DNA from: a virus | Virus record (IMG/VR): IMGVR_UViG_3300013100_000016 | Span: 1 to 42,394 of that record | DNA: 42,394 bases | Strand: one strand, 5' to 3' | Shown: piece after piece, positions 1-42,119 of the stretch | Position numbering within the stretch: position 1 is the first letter of the stretch | Layout: the number at the start of each line of letters is the position of its first letter | Translations under genes and position numbers: made by a program | Notes under the pieces: generated by a model | The model's input: only the letters and a program-made list of their open reading frames with translations | Told to the model about the DNA's origin: nothing | Databases searched by the model: none

Positions 1-176
1 CAAAAGTAAGGTTCTTGATTAAAAGTCAATAAGGCTTTTTTACACTTCAAAAGACGAAGACTAAACCGGAAAAATTGCTCGATATAGTTCTGCTCGGCAT
101 TTAATCCAAGCAAAAGCGATATTCTACAAGCACTTAACTGCTCAATCTGGTTTAGTTCTAAATGTTGGAATGTCAT
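1..176 (-). CDS. 5' end of a host gene, possibly GAF-domain sensor/diguanylate cyclase (partial)
   Basis: An open frame runs leftward off the window edge from an ATG at 174-176. It is preceded by a good ribosome binding site (GTGAGGCGGGCA before the ATG on the minus strand). The 58 visible residues begin MTFQHLELNQIEQLSACRIS and continue into FRFSLRLLKCKKALLTFNQ. That helix followed by a strand resembles the N-terminus of GAF sensor domains found ahead of GGDEF domains, but too little is visible to be sure. It is probably the host gene bordering the mobile region on the left. The 3' part lies outside the window. Confidence 0.5.
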   Translation of the reverse strand, partial: MTFQHLELNQIEQLSACRISLLLGLNAEQNYIEQFFRFSLRLLKCKKALLTFNQEPYF

Positions 177-566
177 TGCCCGCCTCACAGATTTTGTCGT
201 TTTTGGTCGGAACCGCTCTTAAAAATGTACTTATAATCATTATGATCTACTACAAACTTTAACACAGTACATTAAAAGAGCAACGTTCTTTTCAAAATAG
301 AAATGTGAAGTTTCAATTAAAGGTTTTCAGATACATAAAGTGGGTATGCTTGAGGAAAATACAACAAATGTTTGAAGGTAAAGAGTTGTAAGATGTAAGA
401 AATGCGAGTTCAGAATACGAGTAAAACAGAGTAAAAAATAATATTTGAATAAGAATTATAATGTCCGACTGAATACGCTTGGCACATCGCTAAGCCTATA
501 ATAGAAATTGTCGGCAGAAGGATGCTCACACGATTTTTTTTATAAAAAGGCATAACGAACCTTCAG
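177..566. other. Intergenic region, probable junction between host and older element
   Basis: No credible gene is seen on either strand. The stretch is A+T-rich, lacks long open frames with ribosome binding sites and contains no tRNA-like sequence. It should contain the left junction of the older element, but I could not identify an attachment-site copy here. Confidence 0.5.
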
Positions 567-686
567 ACAAAAAATACCGCTTTAACAGCGGTTTGTCAGC
601 TTTGTTTTCAAAACGAGACGCCAATCTCGACCACCATGTAGGTGGTAAATTTAGAGTAGCTTAGATACTATTCGTTAGTCGTCAAT
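567..686 (-). ncRNA. C4-like antisense RNA unit, copy 1
   Basis: Read on the minus strand, this has the layout of a small phage immunity RNA. A promoter-like region carries TTGACG (680-685) and a conserved AGTATCTAAGCTACTCT block. Two adjacent hairpins follow: ACCACC/GGTGGT (630-646), and CGAGA/TCTCG (614-629) with loop UUGGCG core. It ends with a terminator stem ACCGCT/AGCGGT (576-592) and a U-run. The same layout recurs at 2183-2300 and 4695-4812. The spacing between TTGACG and TACTCT is 21 nt here, against 17 in the other copies, so this promoter may be weak or dead. The similarity to phage P1 C4 RNA is from memory of the family and structure, not a search. Confidence 0.6.
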
Positions 687-708
687 AATAACTAATAGGC
701 TTAATACT

Positions 709-2121
709 TTGAATATCGCAGCTAACTCCGAAGATACCTCTTATAAACTCATTAAAGACATTTCAGATAAAATCGAAACTCCATTTGAAAATGATTTTTG
801 GGGACGTGAAGCATTAGCAAATCGTTTAACAGATCATGTCTCACGTATAACTGTTGGGGCAACTATTGCAATTGACGCTGAATGGGGAGCGGGTAAATCC
901 TGGTTTGTTAAAAATTGGAAAGCAAAATTAGAACAAAACAATTTTAAAGTTATTTATTTGAATGCTTTTAATCAAGATTATATTGACGATCCTTTTTTAA
1001 CTATTTCCATGGAAATTGCTAATTGTCTCGAAAGTGAAGAAACAAACATAGATACAATTAAAGAAACTATAGGAAAAGCTTATAGAGCAATTCTTCCTAA
1101 CTTACCAATGTTACTTTGGTACCTTACTACATCACTTGTAGGTATGGATGCTTTGGCTAAACCTGTAGCAGAAACAGTAGAAAAACTTAAAACTGCTGAT
1201 GATTTTGGAAAAGAAGCTGCAAAACTTCTCAATGAAAAATTACAAGAACATCTTTCAGCACAAGTTGAAAACTACGATAAAGAAAAGCAATCCTTACAAT
1301 ACTTTAAAGAAGCTTTAGCAAAAATAACGTCTAAATTAGATAAACCTTTAGTATTTATTGTTGATGAACTTGACCGTTGTAAGCCAGAATTTGCAATTCG
1401 TCTTATTGAACGCATCAAACACTTTTTTGATATTCCAAAAGTGGTATTCATTCTTGCTATTAATAAAAAACAACTAGAAGAATCGATCAATAACTTTTAT
1501 GGATTCTCAAATACAGCTAATTATTTAGAAAAATTTATTGATTTTTCTATAATTTTAAAAAGTAGAGATTTAGATGGCAATAGATATTCTGAAATTTTAA
1601 AAAACTATAATCAGGACTTTCAACTATTACTAGATTATACGGAAATTCATATTTACATGAATTTATGTCAAATTTATTCTCCTAATCCACGACAACTTAT
1701 ACGAATTATTAATAAATTTTCATTATTAAAAGGAAATTTAGATAATCGAAAGAAATTATTTCTTTTTTTATTTTTAATTTATTCAGAAATGAGATTAATT
1801 GAAACTTATAAAGAGATAAATTTTATTGACCACTTCTATGAATTACACCTTAATTTCCATGAAATAAGATTTCGTCAATACGCTCTACATAGGAGCGGAG
1901 AGCGAAGTGAAGCTGCTAAGCTTTGTGATTACCTTGATTACCATGTTTACTCATTTAATGGAAATTCATCTTTATTTGATTTATTTTTTTACTATATAGA
2001 GCACGTTAAATCGTCAAGAAATGATTATAAAGAATGTAAGAATGCTTATTACCCTACTAATAAATGCTCCGAAGATTTAGTTGAAGAGTGGCATAAATAT
2101 GTACATATGATTGAGGAATAA
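709..2121 (+). CDS. KAP family P-loop NTPase, candidate defence protein
   Basis: This 470-aa protein has a Walker A motif at residues 58-65 (EWGAGKSW) and a Walker B motif at 215-223 (VFIVDELDR). The N-terminal FWGREALANRL segment is typical of KAP NTPases. A hydrophobic stretch at about 128-150 lies between the two motifs, as is common in KAP proteins, which are often membrane-associated. KAP NTPases include the phage-exclusion protein PifA; a role in blocking phage is inferred from that and from the context. The start is TTG at 709, because the conserved N-terminus begins well before any in-frame ATG. The ribosome binding site is poor. The gene lies between two C4-like RNA units in the decayed left-hand element, beside a HEPN-type gene. 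The frame is intact although the surrounding prophage is degraded. Confidence 0.8.
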   Translation: MNIAANSEDTSYKLIKDISDKIETPFENDFWGREALANRLTDHVSRITVGATIAIDAEWGAGKSWFVKNWKAKLEQNNFKVIYLNAFNQDYIDDPFLTISMEIANCLESEETNIDTIKETIGKAYRAILPNLPMLLWYLTTSLVGMDALAKPVAETVEKLKTADDFGKEAAKLLNEKLQEHLSAQVENYDKEKQSLQYFKEALAKITSKLDKPLVFIVDELDRCKPEFAIRLIERIKHFFDIPKVVFILAINKKQLEESINNFYGFSNTANYLEKFIDFSIILKSRDLDGNRYSEILKNYNQDFQLLLDYTEIHIYMNLCQIYSPNPRQLIRIINKFSLLKGNLDNRKKLFLFLFLIYSEMRLIETYKEINFIDHFYELHLNFHEIRFRQYALHRSGERSEAAKLCDYLDYHVYSFNGNSSLFDLFFYYIEHVKSSRNDYKECKNAYYPTNKCSEDLVEEWHKYVHMIEE

Positions 2122-2182
2122 TTTTAATATGCAGGTTAATTTTTTAGCCCTCATGCGATCTCCAATAAGATTACAATAAACC

Positions 2183-2300
2183 TTCAGTCAAAAACCGCTC
2201 TTGTAGCGGTTTTTGACTTTATATTTATGCTAGACACCAATCTCAGCCACTAAAGTAGAGTGGTAAATTCGGAGTATTTTAGATACTATAAGCCGTCAAT
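2183..2300 (-). ncRNA. C4-like antisense RNA unit, copy 2
   Basis: On the minus strand a promoter TTGACG (2294-2299), 17 nt and TACTCC (2271-2276) is followed by the same hairpin order as copies 1 and 3, with changed loops. It ends in a perfect 13-bp terminator stem, GTCAAAAACCGCT/AGCGGTTTTTGAC (2187-2217). The hairpin equivalent to the variable loop reads GAGAUUGGUGUCU. That differs from copies 1 and 3, as expected if loops set specificity. The terminator stem is symmetrical and has A/T runs on both sides, so it probably also ends the plus-strand KAP transcript. Confidence 0.6.
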
Positions 2301-2351
2301 AATTTAAGTTTTTGATCTAGTATTTATTACTTTTTAATTATGAGAAATAAA

Positions 2352-3245
2352 ATGGATTACTTAGAATCCCGTCAAGATTTAGTAATGGACATTCATTTTG
2401 AATGTAATAATTGTGAAAACCATATAGAAGCTTTGGTGTATGTTCCTGACCCTGACTTTTCTGCTGAAAAAAATTCAGATAGTACTGTTGAAACAGAAGA
2501 TTATATTCTTTGTGATCAATGTAATTATGAACATGAAATAATTGTTCTAAATACATTTGGTGGGGCAAGTTGTTATTTTTCGGATGGGAATTCAAATGAT
2601 ATTAGTTGTGGGACACCTTATTATACCTTTGATGAAATGGAAGAATTACAATGGTCAATTAGTAATGGTGGACAACTTGAAATTTTAGAAAAACAGTTAG
2701 AAATTGTAAATAACCTTCGAGAAGGTGTAAATATTTCTGGTGCTGTGTTAAACAATTCATTTAACACGATGGTATATGCACATATTGTTGCAGCATTAGA
2801 AGGATATTTATCCTCTATTTTCATACACACCGTACTAAACTCAAAAGAGTTATTCAAAAAACTTTGTATTACAAATCCAGATCTTAATACATTAGAGTAC
2901 AAACTAACAGATTTAGTAAAAGATGATAAATTTGTTGAGAAAAAAATAAGTGAATATCTTAGTAAATTTATATTTCATAGAGTAGATAAAATTAAGTTGA
3001 TGTTTGACAGCGTCCTAGATCATAAATTTGGTGATATAGGTTGGTTTGGCAGAGCTGTTAGTAAACGTCATGATTGTGTACACCGTGCTGGAATTACCAA
3101 AGATGGAGAAATTGTTAATATTAGCAATAAAGAAATAAATGAGCTGATTGTGAATGGTAAAGCTATGGTTTATCAGCTTCAAAATACTATTGATAACTTG
3201 CCTAAAGATACTATCGATAAAATTGATTGGGATTTTAATTTCTAA
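2352..3245 (+). CDS. Zinc-ribbon protein with C-terminal HEPN-type Rx4H motif
   Basis: The N-terminus has paired cysteine motifs, CNNC and CDQC, about 35 residues apart and fit to bind zinc. The helical C-terminal half contains AVSKRHDCVHRAG. Its RHDCVH is the R-x4-H signature of HEPN ribonuclease domains, and the following 'HRAG...DG' wording matches HEPN proteins of defence islands. The role as a toxic RNase is inferred from the motif. I start the gene at ATG 2352 because GAGAAA lies just upstream of it; an in-frame ATG at 2340 would add four residues. It follows the KAP NTPase gene, with a C4-like RNA unit between them. A perfect 12-bp hairpin follows the stop codon. Confidence 0.65.
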   Translation: MDYLESRQDLVMDIHFECNNCENHIEALVYVPDPDFSAEKNSDSTVETEDYILCDQCNYEHEIIVLNTFGGASCYFSDGNSNDISCGTPYYTFDEMEELQWSISNGGQLEILEKQLEIVNNLREGVNISGAVLNNSFNTMVYAHIVAALEGYLSSIFIHTVLNSKELFKKLCITNPDLNTLEYKLTDLVKDDKFVEKKISEYLSKFIFHRVDKIKLMFDSVLDHKFGDIGWFGRAVSKRHDCVHRAGITKDGEIVNISNKEINELIVNGKAMVYQLQNTIDNLPKDTIDKIDWDFNF

Positions 3246-3250
3246 TCTAT

Positions 3251-3279
3251 ATAAGTCAATATTAATTATATTGACTTAT
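3251..3279 (+). terminator. Perfect 12-bp hairpin after the HEPN-type gene
   Basis: Arms ATAAGTCAATAT and ATATTGACTTAT enclose the loop TAATT. It starts 5 nt after the stop codon. The stem is A+T-rich and the following U-run is weak, so it could be a poor terminator or an mRNA-stabilising hairpin. Confidence 0.45.
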
Positions 3280-3389
3280 ACTATTTCAATTTTAAATATC
3301 TTTTGATTTAATTAAACATATTATTTTTGTATTTAATATATTTCTTTCATCCTAATAACATTAAAAAACTATTAAAATAATTTTATTAA

Positions 3390-3548
3390 ACTTGTGGATT
3401 TACCTCTTCAAAAGATTTGAATCCAATAATTTTATCCCCTGCCTATTCATTGACTGTATCTGCAAATCGCGTCTGCTCAGGAATAATTTCATTAAACCAA
3501 TACGCTTCTCTAAAAGCTTTAATTGAACCAAAGCTTTTAGAAAATTAA
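3390..3548 (-). pseudogene. Fragment of a P2-type portal gene (3' end)
   Basis: The minus strand translates to KSFGSIKAFREAYWF, then NEIIPEQTRFADTVNE, a TAG stop, then AGDKIIGFKSFEEVNP. This aligns without gaps to the C-terminus of the intact portal at 6181-7170 (GGFGSISEAREAYWFSEII ... NTVNEWAGDEIVKFKTFNEV). The stop sits exactly where the intact protein has tryptophan (TGG to TAG). The rest of the gene is missing. DNA identity is only moderate, so it derives from a different phage and not from a recent duplication. This is the main evidence for an older P2-like prophage to the left of the current one. Confidence 0.8.
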
Positions 3549-3563
3549 AAACTTGCCCAACAA

Positions 3564-3594
3564 AAAACCCCTAAACCGTTAGCTTAGGGGTTTT
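3564..3594 (-). terminator. Terminator hairpin beside the tRNA-Leu 3'-end remnant
   Basis: Perfect 11-bp arms AAAACCCCTAA and TTAGGGGTTTT enclose a 9-nt loop. On the minus strand a T-run (TTTTTT) follows, so it terminates leftward transcription. It has the same position relative to the tRNA-end remnant as the hairpin at 41969-42008 has to the intact tRNA-Leu. Confidence 0.7.
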
Positions 3595-3597
3595 AGT

Positions 3598-3634
3598 AGA
3601 ATCTTACGATTCCGAATATGGTCCGAGGGTCGGG
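3598..3634 (-). repeat. Decayed tRNA-Leu 3'-end / attachment-site-like remnant
   Basis: TGGTCCGAGGGTCGG (3619-3633) matches the CCA end and T-arm of the intact tRNA-Leu (TGGTCCCGAGGGTCGG at 42032) with one base missing. The flanking AGAATC..GATTC dyad is also shared with 42010-42026. The match is imperfect, so it is either an eroded attL of the current prophage or an att remnant of the older element. It marks the boundary between the two. Confidence 0.6.
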
Positions 3635-3674
3635 GTCTGAAAAGAATTGAATAACAGAGGTTTAATCAAAAAAA

Positions 3675-4219
3675 TGTGGGTAAATGTGGAAGAAGGTACG
3701 ATTTATGGTGATTTTTATAAAGCATCAAAAGAAGTGCCAAAATAATGAAAACTCAAAATTTCTAATGACAAAAAAAACAGGTAACAAAAGTAACAGATTT
3801 AGAAAATACCAGTTAAGTATATGAATAATAATATAAATATATTAATTTTAAAAAGTAACAATTAAGTAACTTCTAAGTAACATGTTACCCACTTTTCAGG
3901 TAACAGAGCGTTACTAAACAATTTAATATTTATCAATAACTTAATTAACTTGTTACCTAGCTTGTTCCCTAATGTTACCTTTTCTAGTAACAGGTTTTTC
4001 ATAATTAATTCATATGCTTAAGTGTAGTTTTAGGTGTGTGTTACCTAATTTCAGATTTTTTATTTTGATTTTAAAAGGCCTGTTTTAGACCGTGACTTTT
4101 CAATGAGTTTCTTTCTGTGGAAATTTGTGGAAACCGTGTAGAAAAATGCAGAATCAATTTTGTAGTGTTTTGCTCTAACGTAAGCCATATCTACAGCCGT
4201 TTTACCCACAAATGTGGGT
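3675..4219. other. GTAAC repeat array, candidate phage replication origin
   Basis: Between 3781 and 4044 the 5-mer GTAAC or its complement GTTAC occurs about 13 times in 265 bp, often as AAGTAAC, GTAACAG or TGTTACC. Less than one would be expected by chance. The spacing is irregular and both orientations occur, as in iteron clusters. TGTGGGTAA (3675-3683) and TTACCCACA (4202-4210) flank it; each is one base from the DnaA box TTATCCACA. A palindrome ACCCACA-AA-TGTGGGT lies at 4204-4219. No gene is visible from 3642 to 4331. The prophage encodes a P4-alpha-like primase/helicase, a family that binds short iterons at ori and crr. The origin role is inferred. Confidence 0.5.
3696..3715 (+). promoter_or_regulatory. 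Orphan copy of the phage repressor operator half-site
   Basis: These 20 bases (GTACGATTTATGGTGATTTT) are identical to 36358-36377 in the XRE/early-gene operator region. An exact 20-mer match in a non-coding region is unlikely by chance. It lies just upstream of the GTAAC array, where a repressor could affect replication. Confidence 0.5.
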
Positions 4220-4267
4220 GACTGAATTTTTGTAGAGTATTCGACATATTTACTGCCCAGGTGTGGT

Positions 4268-4285
4268 GGGGGGACAACCGCCCCC
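4268..4285 (-). terminator. G/C-rich stem-loop after the 69-aa gene
   Basis: GGGGG and CCCCC enclose a short loop, 47 nt beyond the stop of the minus-strand 69-aa gene. No T-run follows, so it is a weak candidate terminator. Confidence 0.3.
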
Positions 4286-4331
4286 GCTGAAGGAGAATGA
4301 GCAACTTCGGCCCATACCCCTCAGATTTTAG

Positions 4332-4541
4332 TCAAGCTTTGATTTGCTGGCAGATCTCGTGGACCTGAAGGTGTAACCCACACATGATGGCGTTGAACTC
4401 ATCACTTGGAAGGTCATCGTCAAAGTGCATGCGTGAAAGAGCTGATAGGTAGTGTTCTAGTTTAGAAAGAGAGTCGCTGACTGTTTGAAGTAAGTCTTCT
4501 GGACTGGCTGGCTTGTTACCAGCTTTTAATAATGGAGTCAT
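4332..4541 (-). CDS. 69-aa helical protein of the C4-like immunity unit
   Basis: The protein reads MTPLLKAGNKPASPEDLLQT and continues as a helical, acidic domain ending EICQQIKA. It is a paralogue of the 71-aa protein at 34675-34890: both share the pattern LxxLxxxLxxxxxMxxDDxLxxxEFxAIxxxLHxQV. An open frame extends 44 codons upstream, but that part overlaps a strongly folded RNA leader and does not match the paralogue, so I start at ATG 4541. The SD-like AGG lies in the 3' arm of the leader's outer stem, so translation may be controlled by RNA folding. The position after a C4-like RNA recalls the c4-icd-ant operon of phage P1. Function is unknown; an antirepressor or host-modifying role is possible. 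Confidence 0.6.
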   Translation of the reverse strand: MTPLLKAGNKPASPEDLLQTVSDSLSKLEHYLSALSRMHFDDDLPSDEFNAIMCGLHLQVHEICQQIKA

Positions 4542-4551
4542 AGTTCTATTT

Positions 4552-4690
4552 ACCTGTGTTTGGTTTGCTATGCCATCCCAGCGACCAAACTGGGGTGGCA
4601 GACCGAACGGGGTTGGTCGACCGTGAAACACAGGTAAAACGGCAGGCGTTAGCCTCCCCATCCGATCCACCATAACAACGGGTGTACCGA
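4552..4690 (-). promoter_or_regulatory. Structured 5' leader, candidate target of the C4-like RNA
   Basis: On the minus strand, a perfect 10-bp outer stem (ACCTGTGTTT at 4635-4626 with AAACACAGGT at 4561-4552) closes the structure. Inside is the hairpin at 4600-4571: TGCCA/TGGCA and CCCAG/CTGGG with loop UUUGGUCG. The strand CGACCAA (4619-4613) lies 5' of it. The hairpin loop is identical to the loop of the C4-like RNA just upstream, and both can pair with CGACCAA. The outer stem covers the likely SD of the 69-aa gene. This suggests control by alternative pairing. Confidence 0.55.
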
Positions 4691-4694
4691 ATTA

Positions 4695-4812
4695 TAGACA
4701 AAAAAAATCCGCTAGTAGCGGCTGTCTACCATATGTTTCTAAACGAGCGACCAAACTCGACCACCATGAGGGTGGTAAATTTAGAGTAGCTTAGATACTT
4801 TGTAGGGTCAAT
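4695..4812 (-). ncRNA. C4-like antisense RNA unit, copy 3 (current prophage)
   Basis: On the minus strand the promoter TTGACC (4806-4811), 17 nt, TACTCT (4783-4788) precedes hairpin ACCACC/GGTGGT (4760-4776). Next is hairpin CGAG/CTCG (4744-4759) with loop UUUGGUCG. The terminator stem CCGCT/AGCGG, inside an outer AGACA/TGTCT stem (4696-4727), ends in a run of eight Us. Layout and position upstream of a short phage gene match P1/P7 C4, which is processed or terminated from the ant operon leader and represses it by pairing. The promoter spacer carries the dyad AGTA-CT-AG-TACT shared by all copies, a possible operator. Confidence 0.65.
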
Positions 4813-4830
4813 ATTAAAATTTATAGAGCT

Positions 4831-6081
4831 TTAAAATTTATTTTGGCTCTTAAAGTTTGGATAATATTTAAGAATGAAGTAAAGTTCATCTGTAATACTA
4901 ATCTTCTTCAGACTTTCAAATTGATTTAAATTTTTATCATCCAGATTTATTTCCTCACTAAGACTTAATAGCTTGTCTGAAACCAATTGTTGTAATTGGC
5001 CAAGACTAACTATTTTAAATTGCCCCATTCCATCATAAGTATAAAGTATTAAATATTTACGTAAGATACTGATTTGATCTTTTAACATATTTATATTTTC
5101 AGATTCAAATTCACATAGAGCAAACTCTTTAAAATATAATCCCCACTCTTCATTTTTACCAAAAGCTATTGAATTATAAAAAAAACCATTTCTCATTAAG
5201 AAATTTTTTTCTGCATATGACATATCATAATTTGGATTTAAGCCTTCAAACAATGAAGTCATCTCAATATTTTCTTTTAAATTGCAATCAATAAAACCAT
5301 TAACAAAAATTAGTTCTAACTCCACTCTACTTAACGTTGCTTTAAATATATTTATATATGTTTCAATATTAATACCCTTACTTTTTGAGTGAACTAAAAG
5401 AATTAAAATTTGATCACATATACGAATATAACTTGAAAATATATCATATGAATATTTCTTATAATAATAATCAAAACTGTCGTTTTGCTTTAAATATTCT
5501 AATCTTTTTTCAAAGACATTTATTCCTTTGGTTTCTGTAACTATATGAGAATCTGTTTCAATTGTTTTTATCATATTTATCGAATTATTCTTTGTTTTAA
5601 TTAACTCAAAAAATAAACTTTCAAAATTTTGAATTTCAATTTGTTGTTGTTGAGCTTTATTTGCCATTTGTTGGGAAAGCAATGTTTTTTCCTGTAAAGC
5701 TAATAACTCTTTTTGAGTAATAACATTTTCATTCTCCAATTCTGCAATTGACTTTTGATGCCTTGCTGATTCAACTTGTGCTGCTGCTGCTTTTTTTAGT
5801 TCTTCTCTAGTATCTTTGAGTTCTTTAATTTGAAGTCGTACTGAATATGTTAGCCAATAAAATGCAAATAGGGCAAAAATGGGATTCAGAATTCCACCAA
5901 AGAAGTCACCAAAAGTCCCCCACTTTTCAAGACTTTCTGAGATGGAAATCTGATTTGATGCGATAGCTAAATAAGCCAAAACTACAACTACAATTAGAAA
6001 AATTACTAACTCCCTATGAAAGTTAATATCTTGATCTATTTTCTCTAAATCTTTATTTGAATTATTTTCTTTTTCTTGCAT
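4831..6081 (-). CDS. AbiC-like phage abortive infection protein
   Basis: From ATG 6081 this gives about 416 residues. Two hydrophobic helices lie near the N-terminus: ELVIFLIVVVVLAYLAIA, and ILNPIFALFAFYWLTYSV after the motif WGTFGDFFGG. A coiled coil rich in Glu, Lys and Gln follows, then a helical domain opening FESLFFELIKTKNN. This order is that of the putative AbiC family, membrane-anchored proteins linked to phage exclusion. An in-frame ATG at 6123 lies inside the terminator of the portal operon, so 6081 is the better start; neither has a clear SD. It sits beyond the P/Q late operon, with its own presumed promoter. A second protein of similar design is at 34924-35940. Role inferred from family and context. 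Confidence 0.7.
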   Translation of the reverse strand: MQEKENNSNKDLEKIDQDINFHRELVIFLIVVVVLAYLAIASNQISISESLEKWGTFGDFFGGILNPIFALFAFYWLTYSVRLQIKELKDTREELKKAAAAQVESARHQKSIAELENENVITQKELLALQEKTLLSQQMANKAQQQQIEIQNFESLFFELIKTKNNSINMIKTIETDSHIVTETKGINVFEKRLEYLKQNDSFDYYYKKYSYDIFSSYIRICDQILILLVHSKSKGINIETYINIFKATLSRVELELIFVNGFIDCNLKENIEMTSLFEGLNPNYDMSYAEKNFLMRNGFFYNSIAFGKNEEWGLYFKEFALCEFESENINMLKDQISILRKYLILYTYDGMGQFKIVSLGQLQQLVSDKLLSLSEEINLDDKNLNQFESLKKISITDELYFILKYYPNFKSQNKF

Positions 6082-34115: not shown

Positions 34116-34144
34116 TTGACGCGTAATAGTATCTAAGCTACTGT
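34116..34144 (+). promoter_or_regulatory. Promoter with the C4-unit core, rightward
   Basis: TTGACG (34116-34121), 17 nt, TACTGT (34139-34144). The spacer and -10 region TAGTATCTAAGCTACT are identical to the minus-strand C4-like promoters, including the AGTA-CT-AG-TACT dyad. It faces the membrane-protein operon promoter. Confidence 0.65.
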
Positions 34145-34179: not shown

Positions 34180-34375
34180 GCCTAGGAAACCTGTAAATTA
34201 CGAAAAGGCGCATAAAAGTCCGTCTTCGGGCTATTTTTTTGCGAAAAATTCAGCTTTGCTGTTCTATGGCAGGCTGGATAGGGCAGCTTCGCGCTGGCCG
34301 TTACCTTTTCGGACGGTTTTCCTAGCCCTGTTCAGTCTGTCACCATTACCCTAGGAAAGTGATGGTGTCAGGTTT
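34180..34375 (+). promoter_or_regulatory. Long structured leader with internal terminator
   Basis: CTAGGAAACC (34182-34191) can pair with GGTTTTCCTAG (34315-34325), and CGAAAAGG (34201-34208) with CCTTTTCG (34304-34311), nested. Inside lies a terminator stem AGTCCG/CGGGCT (34217-34232) followed by ATTTTTTT. GTCCG of its left arm can also pair with CGGAC (34310-34314), so the two folds exclude each other. This looks like an attenuator ahead of the 63-aa and 71-aa genes. There is no credible gene in 34095-34400. Confidence 0.5.
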
Positions 34376-34400
34376 TAAACTTGACGAAAAGGACAAGCAA

Positions 34401-34592
34401 ATGAAAACATTCGCTTTAAAGAACTCCCCTATTCAAAATTCCGTTCAGGAACATACCCCAATTCACGACTTAGACGCATACTTAAAGCAAAAGCGTCGTC
34501 AACAAAAATTAAAGCTCCTCAAGCGCGCCTTTGAAAGTGGTGTCTTCTCAATCATTATTATCTTAACAATTTCCATAATATCAGGCAGATAA
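34401..34592 (+). CDS. 63-aa protein with C-terminal membrane helix
   Basis: I start at ATG 34401, behind AAAAGGAC; the longer frame from 34359 begins inside the folded leader. The protein has a polar N-terminus, a basic stretch KQKRRQQKLKLLKRA and a tail anchor GVFSIIIILTISIISG. Position recalls icd, the small gene between c4 and ant in phage P1, but no homology is claimed. Confidence 0.6.
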   Translation: MKTFALKNSPIQNSVQEHTPIHDLDAYLKQKRRQQKLKLLKRAFESGVFSIIIILTISIISGR

Positions 34593-34674: not shown

Positions 34675-34890
34675 ATGCACTCAACACTAGACGTTAATAG
34701 CCACAAGAAAATGACGGCCGAAGAAATACTGGAAGAAATTGAATATCCACTTGAGAACCTTCAAAACTTACTTTTTGCCTTTTCAAAAATGAAAGTCGAT
34801 GATGGTTTAAAAGAACAAGAATTTAGTGCCATCATCAACACGCTACATCACCAAGTGATCAACATTAACCGCGCGGTTCATGCTAAATGA
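34675..34890 (+). CDS. 71-aa helical protein, paralogue of the 69-aa gene
   Basis: The protein has AEEILEEIEYPLENLQNLL, then KMKVDDGLKEQEFSAIINTL, then HHQVININRAV. It aligns over about 55 residues with the 69-aa protein at 4332-4541. Both are last in an operon that starts with the same promoter type and a folded leader. GGGGGAGAA gives a strong ribosome binding site. Function unknown. Confidence 0.65.
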   Translation: MHSTLDVNSHKKMTAEEILEEIEYPLENLQNLLFAFSKMKVDDGLKEQEFSAIINTLHHQVININRAVHAK

Positions 34891-35947: not shown

Positions 35948-36289
35948 TTACTTAAATTGATTTGCATAAGTCTCAGCTATAGAGACTAACCCCGAACGCA
36001 TTTCTTCACGTGTTTGACGGTAGAGCTGAATCAGCTTAGCTTCATCATCCGCCAGTTCACTGCTCTTCAGTTCTGAAGCACCCCACAGAATATAAGCAAT
36101 ATTAAAGCCATGATCTTCAAGCAAATCTAACTGGTCAGTGTCTAAAGGTGCATTGTGCTTTTCATAGCGCACAACAGAGTTCTTTTTAACGTTTAAGATC
36201 TCGGCCAACTCATCTTGCGTAACAATGCCCAAGCGCTTACGTTCTTCTTTTAAACGTTCACCACGATTAGAAAAATCACTATTTTTCAT
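35948..36289 (-). CDS. XRE-family phage repressor
   Basis: The 113-aa protein has an N-terminal helix-turn-helix (about residues 20-46: TQDELAEILNVKKNSVVRYE) and a short C-terminal helical part. It lacks a cleavage domain, so induction by RecA-driven cleavage, as in lambda CI, is not expected; P2 C is likewise short. It faces the early operon across paired inverted-repeat operators and is followed by the AbiC-like gene. Confidence 0.8.
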   Translation of the reverse strand: MKNSDFSNRGERLKEERKRLGIVTQDELAEILNVKKNSVVRYEKHNAPLDTDQLDLLEDHGFNIAYILWGASELKSSELADDEAKLIQLYRQTREEMRSGLVSIAETYANQFK

Positions 36290-36312: not shown

Positions 36313-36377
36313 AAATCACCATAAATAGTACTAAATTTAATACCACTAAGTATCTAAGTACGATTTATGGTGATTTT
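36313..36377. promoter_or_regulatory. Divergent early/lysogeny operator region
   Basis: AAATCACCATAAAT-A-GTAC (36313-36331) and its inverted copy GTAC-G-ATTTATGGTGATTT (36358-36375) form a long inverted repeat with arms of about 18 bp (one mismatch). They flank a spacer that contains AGTATCTAAG, the same 10-mer found in the C4-unit promoters. The site lies in the 91-nt gap between the repressor and the 63-aa early gene. Confidence 0.65.
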
Positions 36378-41968: not shown

Positions 41969-42008
41969 CAAAGCCCCAAGCCTTTGATATATAAGGCTTG
42001 GGGCTTTG
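41969..42008. terminator. Perfect 16-bp hairpin after tRNA-Leu
   Basis: CAAAGCCCCAAGCCTT and AAGGCTTGGGGCTTTG enclose an 8-nt A+T loop. It would end tRNA-Leu transcription on the minus strand. It is phage-supplied if the integration model is right. Confidence 0.7.
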
Positions 42009-42009
42009 G

Positions 42010-42026
42010 AGAATCTAATAGATTCT
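42010..42026. repeat. Dyad next to the tRNA 3' end, candidate integrase core site
   Basis: AGAATCTA-A-TAGATTCT lies 5 nt beyond the tRNA CCA. A weaker version (AGAATC-TTAC-GATTC) lies at 3598-3612 beside the tRNA remnant. It is probably part of attR. Confidence 0.5.
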
Positions 42027-42031
42027 GAATC

Positions 42032-42119
42032 TGGTCCCGAGGGTCGGACTCGAACCGACACGTCATCTCTGACAGCGGATTTTGAGTCCGCCGCGTCTAC
42101 CAATTTCACCACCTCGGGA
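42032..42119 (-). tRNA. tRNA-Leu (anticodon CAA)
   Basis: The minus strand folds as a long-variable-arm tRNA. Acceptor TCCCGAG/CTCGGGA is followed by encoded CCA (42032-42034). The anticodon loop is CTCAAAA (anticodon CAA), and the T-arm has GGTTCGAGTCC. The prophage integrase gene lies beyond its 3' end, which makes it the attachment site. Confidence 0.95.

Follow-up and report, generated by a model that had tools for sequence, protein, structure and literature searches.

The window analysed here is the whole of the IMG/VR virus record IMGVR_UViG_3300013100_000016, a stretch of 42,394 nucleotides. Near its left end there are three related units, all on the minus strand, at 567–686 (unit 1), 2183–2300 (unit 2) and 4695–4812 (unit 3), which had been described from the letters alone (here called the sequence-only reading) as C4-like antisense RNAs. 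That they are homologous is confirmed at these positions by alignment and by self-BLAST (E 4.8e-19 for units 1 and 3, 1e-5 for units 1 and 2). A covariance model, R1, was built from nine units, all from outside the window, and scores unit 1 at 96.4, unit 3 at 85.7 and unit 2 at 41.2 bits. It is argued below that the units are very probably the leaders of C4 loci, with unit 3 and the C4 RNA behind it forming a complete locus, and units 1 and 2 being left-over leaders without a C4, which would be decoys if they are transcribed.

All three are built alike. A promoter-like block comes first, then hairpin 1 and hairpin 2, the second with a loop that varies; next are an unpaired stretch and a terminator-like hairpin. 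Folding finds both hairpin 1 and hairpin 2 in all three, and the hairpin-2 loops differ, as had been noted. The unit 1 leader (563–649) has hairpin 1 at 630–646, hairpin 2 at 614–629 with the loop sequence b1 UUGGCG, the stretch a1 GAAAACAAAG, and its terminator at 576–592. The unit 2 leader (2184–2267) is diverged, has the b1 loop UUGGUG, ends in a 14-bp hairpin (2186–2218), and is convergent with the 3′ end of a KAP gene. The leader of unit 3 (4694–4779) has b1 UUUGGUCG at 4748–4755, a1 at 4729–4742 and a terminator at 4709–4721. A terminator-like hairpin is present in each, as had been proposed; a consensus terminator scan makes a minus-strand call for units 1 and 3 only, and calls the 14-bp hairpin of unit 2 on the plus strand only.

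The proposal of a shared promoter holds in part. The operator and −10 block is indeed common to the units, but the spacing is not. Unit 1 (653–685, minus strand) has a −35 TTGACG at 680–685, a −10 TACTCT at 653–658 and an operator-like GTATCTAAGCTAC at 656–668; its spacer is 21 bp, and it is alone in this, the spacer elsewhere being 17–18 bp (18 bp in contigs L016 and L036 if counted from TTGAC, 22 bp if an earlier TTGAT is used). Judged by its spacing, the unit 1 promoter is probably crippled. The block of unit 2 (2271–2299, minus strand) is promoter-like, TTGACG-17-TACTCC, with a diverged operator GTATCTAAAATAC at 2274–2286, and unit 3 (4783–4811, minus strand) has TTGACC-17-TACTCT with the operator-like GTATCTAAGCTAC at 4786–4798.

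A search of the window with the Rfam C4 model (RF01695, gathering cut-off 45 bits) gives two matches, neither of them on a unit. The first, at 4591–4677 on the minus strand (62.6 bits, E 6.5e-10), lies directly behind unit 3, and its a′ (4621–4635) and b′ (4612–4621) stretches are complementary to the a1 and b1 of that unit. Behind it is a second pair of targets (4549–4589, minus strand), with b2 at 4582–4589 and a2 AAACACAGGTAAA at 4549–4561, the latter lying over the Shine-Dalgarno region of an ATG at 4541. This ATG begins an open reading frame (ORF) for 69 residues (4332–4541, minus strand; phrog_19125), which is predicted to be under C4 control. The second match is in the early region, at 34262–34347 on the plus strand (66.0 bits, E 9e-11; a′ 34304–34311, b′ 34317–34325). 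It follows a promoter (34116–34144) with the GTATCTAAGCTAC block in common with the three units, and a leader (34182–34240) with b1 at 34182–34189, a1 at 34201–34208 and a terminator-like hairpin at 34218–34240. Its own second targets (34351–34392) are b2 at 34351–34358 and an a2/Shine-Dalgarno stretch at 34385–34392, ahead of an ATG at 34401. The layout of b2 and a2 before the ATG is thus alike in the two loci, and the 69-residue ORF is homologous to the one at 34675–34890 (37% identity, E 7e-12). The best reading of the sequence is that unit 3 starts what would be a working C4 locus.

The pairing of leader and C4 was examined across 31 distinct C4 loci, 16 from the window and phage contigs and 15 from one Acinetobacter baumannii chromosome. 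The computed complementarity of each leader or target to its own C4, summed over all loci, was 605 for a1, 547 for b1 and 522 for a2, against permutation maxima of 458, 475 and 450; in none of 20,000 permutations for each was the match to the own C4 equalled, a count which is not an exact probability because the 31 loci are partly related. The matching a1/b1 and a′/b′ stretches vary in concert from locus to locus. This covariation bears out two suggestions of the sequence-only reading, that the units are part of the C4 system and that specificity resides in the hairpin-2 loops. In the case of unit 3, the b1 UUGGUCG pairs with the b′ CGACCAA of its own C4, and the predicted duplex is −30.0 kcal/mol, compared to −15.2 ± 3.3 kcal/mol for mononucleotide shuffles (0/500 reach it). 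With the C4 at 34 kb, unit 3 forms a duplex at chance level only, and so do units 1 and 2 with both C4s of the window. The best partner of unit 1 is the C4 of phage contig L024 (−29.9 kcal/mol, reached by 1/150 shuffles). No above-chance C4 partner was found for unit 2 (37/150 shuffles), and one pattern search of the viral contigs found no C4 with a b′ matching its b1.

The same arrangement is seen around IsrK. A consensus search for isrK (RF01394) found 16 phage records; 12 of these (L039–L042 and L162–L169, including D6 and phiV10) were examined together with the Salmonella prophage Gifsy-1. C4 lies behind isrK in all 13 of these enterobacterial phage and prophage loci, and c4-a1b1 (RF03163), the motif described as the “a1,b1 targets of C4”, overlaps isrK in nine, Gifsy-1 among them; the 12 phage records are not 12 independent cases, because several are near-identical. 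Gifsy-1 scores 79.3 bits for isrK, 48.1 for c4-a1b1 and 69.0 for C4, and in the P1-like phage D6 the gene order is isrK, C4, icd, antirepressor. R1, from whose training IsrK was left out, also retrieves Gifsy-1 IsrK (E 1.3e-4), which gives evidence of homology from an independent model. The units share with isrK the two hairpins, the UUGG loop, the terminator and this homology; the pairing with the a′/b′ of a directly downstream C4 that characterises c4-a1b1 is found in unit 3 only. In the Acinetobacter phage contigs, a C4 above gathering score lies behind the terminator in all 12 isrK-type units scanned with Rfam. Because C4 comes behind isrK in every enterobacterial locus, overlapped by c4-a1b1 in nine, the units are sense a1/b1 target leaders of C4 loci, the same module as IsrK in Enterobacteria.

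Two further observations can be added. In Gifsy-1 (L065, NC_010392, 34131–34316) the C4 RNA behind IsrK overlaps the region described as orf45. In the Rfam results, C4 and c4-a1b1 are placed in clan CL00128, while isrK, which c4-a1b1 overlaps in Gifsy-1, has no clan.

The units are not all part of one prophage. A P2-like prophage is bounded by attL (3581–3633), a copy of a tRNA-Leu 3′ end, and attR (41996–42047), at the 3′ end of the tRNA-Leu gene (42035–42118, minus strand). In the A. baumannii record the sequence beside tRNA-Leu runs on as positions 3633–3435 of the window. From the position of attL it follows that unit 3 and its C4 are inside the prophage, at its left end. Units 1 and 2 fall beyond its boundary, on a tRNA-Leu island that also carries the KAP gene and a HEPN-like gene. 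The HEPN-like gene (2340–3245) contains RHDCVH, an RX4H motif, and belongs to PHROG 29321, of unknown function; Pfam and PADLOC give no match for it, and NCBIfam none that is credible. Neither protein has close homologues in the viral contigs.

Defence genes also occur beside isrK-type units elsewhere: a TIR match in L009, KAP/PDC-S20 in L021, putAbiC in L033, and PDC-M31A/B in L016 and L024, with L036 similar by sequence. In the window this place is taken by putAbiC and KAP. The C4 locus on the attL side thus lies next to a slot whose defence genes change (KAP/PDC-S20, PDC-M31, TIR, putAbiC). The KAP gene (709) and the HEPN-like gene (2340) start about 25–40 bp from the unit promoters, divergently, and the 14-bp hairpin of unit 2 lies shortly past the KAP stop and has a plus-strand terminator score. 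It might therefore be proposed that units 1 and 2 act mainly as promoter, operator or terminator for these neighbours. This is unlikely, since consensus promoter matches in the intervals are not above the shuffled level and nothing connects the a1/b1 sequences with such a role. The suggestion that the RNAs control the KAP and HEPN-like genes finds no support in base pairing, and a hotspot for prophage defence next to the C4 locus accounts better for the adjacency.

For units 1 and 2 the question is rather where they came from. The computed position of both is outside attL, and no C4 is found behind either. Unit 1 is near-identical to the leader of L024 up to the point where a C4 would be expected to start. 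The A. baumannii record NZ_CP077849 has a C4-bearing unit, then KAP, then a homologue of unit 2 without a C4; the island is present in single copy in the A. baumannii locus L038, and positions 380–570 of the window have no match in the A. baumannii record. The most likely origin is that units 1 and 2 are leaders that lost their C4, remnants of earlier prophages eroded at this site. If transcribed, they would, by analogy, be decoys for the C4s of other phages and not for those of the resident phage. The idea of three immunity specificities survives in part: the three a1/b1 sets do differ, but a C4 is present for unit 3 only.

Several points weigh against the leader reading. The isrK model scores units 1, 3 and 2 at 37.6, 36.1 and 19.7 bits, under its gathering cut-off of 50, and c4-a1b1 has no match at E<=10 in positions 1–6000 of the window. 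The authors of the Gifsy-1 work account for IsrK through a switch of RNA structure in orf45 (PMC4825925), and report that co-expression of STnc1160, a stable RNA deriving from downstream of IsrK, did not block the toxicity of IsrK and made it more pronounced (PMC4825925). Finally, unit 2 keeps its paired hairpins with changed sequence, though it is orphaned in two strains (the window and NZ_CP077849). Pure erosion would not require the hairpins to be kept in both, so a functional orphan is possible.

This last point leads to the proposal that units 1 and 2 have been kept as decoys, sponges for C4 that disturb the circuits of other phages and prophages. The duplex of unit 1 with an L024-type C4, given above, agrees with it, as does that of the A. 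baumannii L038 orphan with L010-type C4s (−29.0 to −32.4 kcal/mol, 3/150 shuffles); the hairpins are kept in unit 2 and in the L038 orphan despite differing sequences, and IsrK is known to act in trans (PMC4825925). However, unit 1 is a near-copy of a C4-linked leader minus its C4 and has the long promoter spacer, unit 2 has neither an above-chance partner nor a C4 with a fitting b′ in the viral contigs, and the orphan state is found in this island only. We consider retention for such a function improbable. The same low standing is given to the wider idea that orphan leaders beside defence genes are maintained and diversifying C4 decoys under the operator of the resident P2-like phage family; if it were true, they would titrate away the C4 made by other phages, whose immunity circuit would fail as a result. 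Least credible is the sequence-only reading, in which the units would be C4-like antisense RNAs in their own right, with three specificities of immunity. It rightly saw that they belong to the C4 system and that loop variation tracks specificity, but where the C4 matches lie, and in which sense, already refutes it. RF01695 gives no match to any of the units, even at E<=10 in 6 kb, a lack that this reading had itself named as counting against it; their b1 and a1 are sense sequences complementary to C4 b′ and a′; and a true C4 lies behind unit 3, as it does behind each of the homologous units scanned in further phage contigs.

We return to the units as leaders, an identity that is itself computed, and to how such a locus might work. 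The promoter, with its operator-like palindrome, would give a short transcript of hairpin 1, hairpin 2 (with b1 in the loop), a1 and the terminator. Readthrough would add C4, then b2, a2 and the small ORF whose Shine-Dalgarno lies within a2, and pairing of C4 with a2/b2 would block translation of that ORF. The terminated leader should be able to pair with C4 in trans because it has the same target sequences as a2/b2, and this pairing would relieve the block, as the trans activation by Gifsy-1 IsrK suggests. We infer this trans-decoy step from the IsrK work, in which Hershko-Shalev et al. showed by experiment that IsrK, once terminated, acts on the readthrough transcript in trans (PMC4825925).

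The finding corrects the sense of the units, which are target rather than antisense. It further connects the work on P1 C4, on Salmonella IsrK and on the C4-like small RNAs (sRNAs) of A. baumannii, three bodies of literature that the papers searched keep apart. A term search of PMC4825925 finds no mention of c4 RNA or phage P1, a 2025 review lists IsrK and c4 as separate entries, and a link between IsrK and C4 is not stated in the literature searched, itself a limited set of papers. Should “orf45” of Gifsy-1 be a C4 RNA, then the switch formed by IsrK and AnrP is a C4 immunity circuit of the standard type, and the activation in trans can be read simply as the work of a decoy, IsrK, that titrates C4.

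The operator-like motif extends beyond the units. AGTATCTAAG occurs five times in the window (0.05 expected), one copy being intergenic (36349–36361, plus strand), upstream of a helix-turn-helix repressor gene (35948–36289, minus strand), with the motif as in the C4 promoters. The site by the repressor gene is present in every phage contig whose sequence extends that far. From the motif we infer that the phage repressor may control both C4 loci, and perhaps the orphan units too. The analysis also shows Acinetobacter P2-like prophages to carry two C4 loci with one common operator-like promoter. An imperfect 64-bp palindrome lies in the repressor intergenic region (36313–36376), and a 20-bp piece of it (36358–36377) repeats exactly at 3696–3715, near attL. 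Further AGTATCTAAGCTACT sites occur in L008 (about 5048) and L023 (about 5382), ~3.3 kb upstream of the C4 locus and with no C4 leader behind them; these possibly mark other genes of the same regulon.

A pattern scan of viral contigs for relatives of the units gave about 30 loci, and most phage contigs searched with R1 have one unit, with one contig having a second weak match and three having none. Unit 3 with its C4 has no DNA match in the phages collection. Two sets of candidates were rejected: the sole Verrucomicrobia match of a pattern scan of the genome collection was spurious, and AgrB, Trp_leader and other sub-threshold Rfam matches are at chance level.

Several known systems can be compared with the units. 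The suggested relation to reported A. baumannii C4-related sRNAs is upheld by Group 1 of Weiss et al. 2016 (PMC5320573), which has alike hairpin-1 loops. These sRNAs have a ‘Region 1’ hairpin with the loop CACAUU/CUACAUU upstream of C4 (PMC5320573); they are full C4 loci, and their ‘Region 1’ hairpin corresponds to hairpin 1 of the units. In contrast, the A. baumannii loci in NZ_CP077849 are without the GTATCTAAGCTAC promoter, except for the homologue of unit 3, and have other short ORFs behind. This record (NZ_CP077849.1, 3.66 Mb) is filed as a plasmid, pDETAB15, and looks like an A. baumannii chromosome. It has 19 C4 matches (L045–L063). Behind many of them come very short ORFs whose starts resemble one another, and some have an a′-matching stretch ahead; these could be small-peptide modules under C4 control. 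Three of them (L057, L062 and L063, 907783–908042) are in tandem, head to tail, without separate leaders.

The c4-a1b1 motif (listed in Weinberg et al. 2010, PMC2864571) resembles the units in its two hairpins, b1 in the second loop, its place directly upstream of C4 and its complementarity to C4 a′/b′; it differs in that the Rfam model misses the Acinetobacter units, the stem sequences are unrelated, and units 1 and 2 have no C4. Gifsy-1 IsrK shares the two hairpins, the UUGG loop, the a1 stretch, the terminator and the C4 that follows, and it has been shown to act in trans on the readthrough mRNA (PMC4825925); it has another promoter, an antirepressor downstream in place of the 69-residue protein of the window, and a model under whose threshold the units score. 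Compared to C4 of P1 and P7, the window has two such RNAs, which are the pairing partners of the leaders, the units being the sense target and not the antisense. The P4 seqA/CI RNA, to which IsrK was likened by Hershko-Shalev et al. (PMC4825925), likewise combines an upstream target, an antisense RNA and a downstream target in one transcript, but CI acts on transcription termination.

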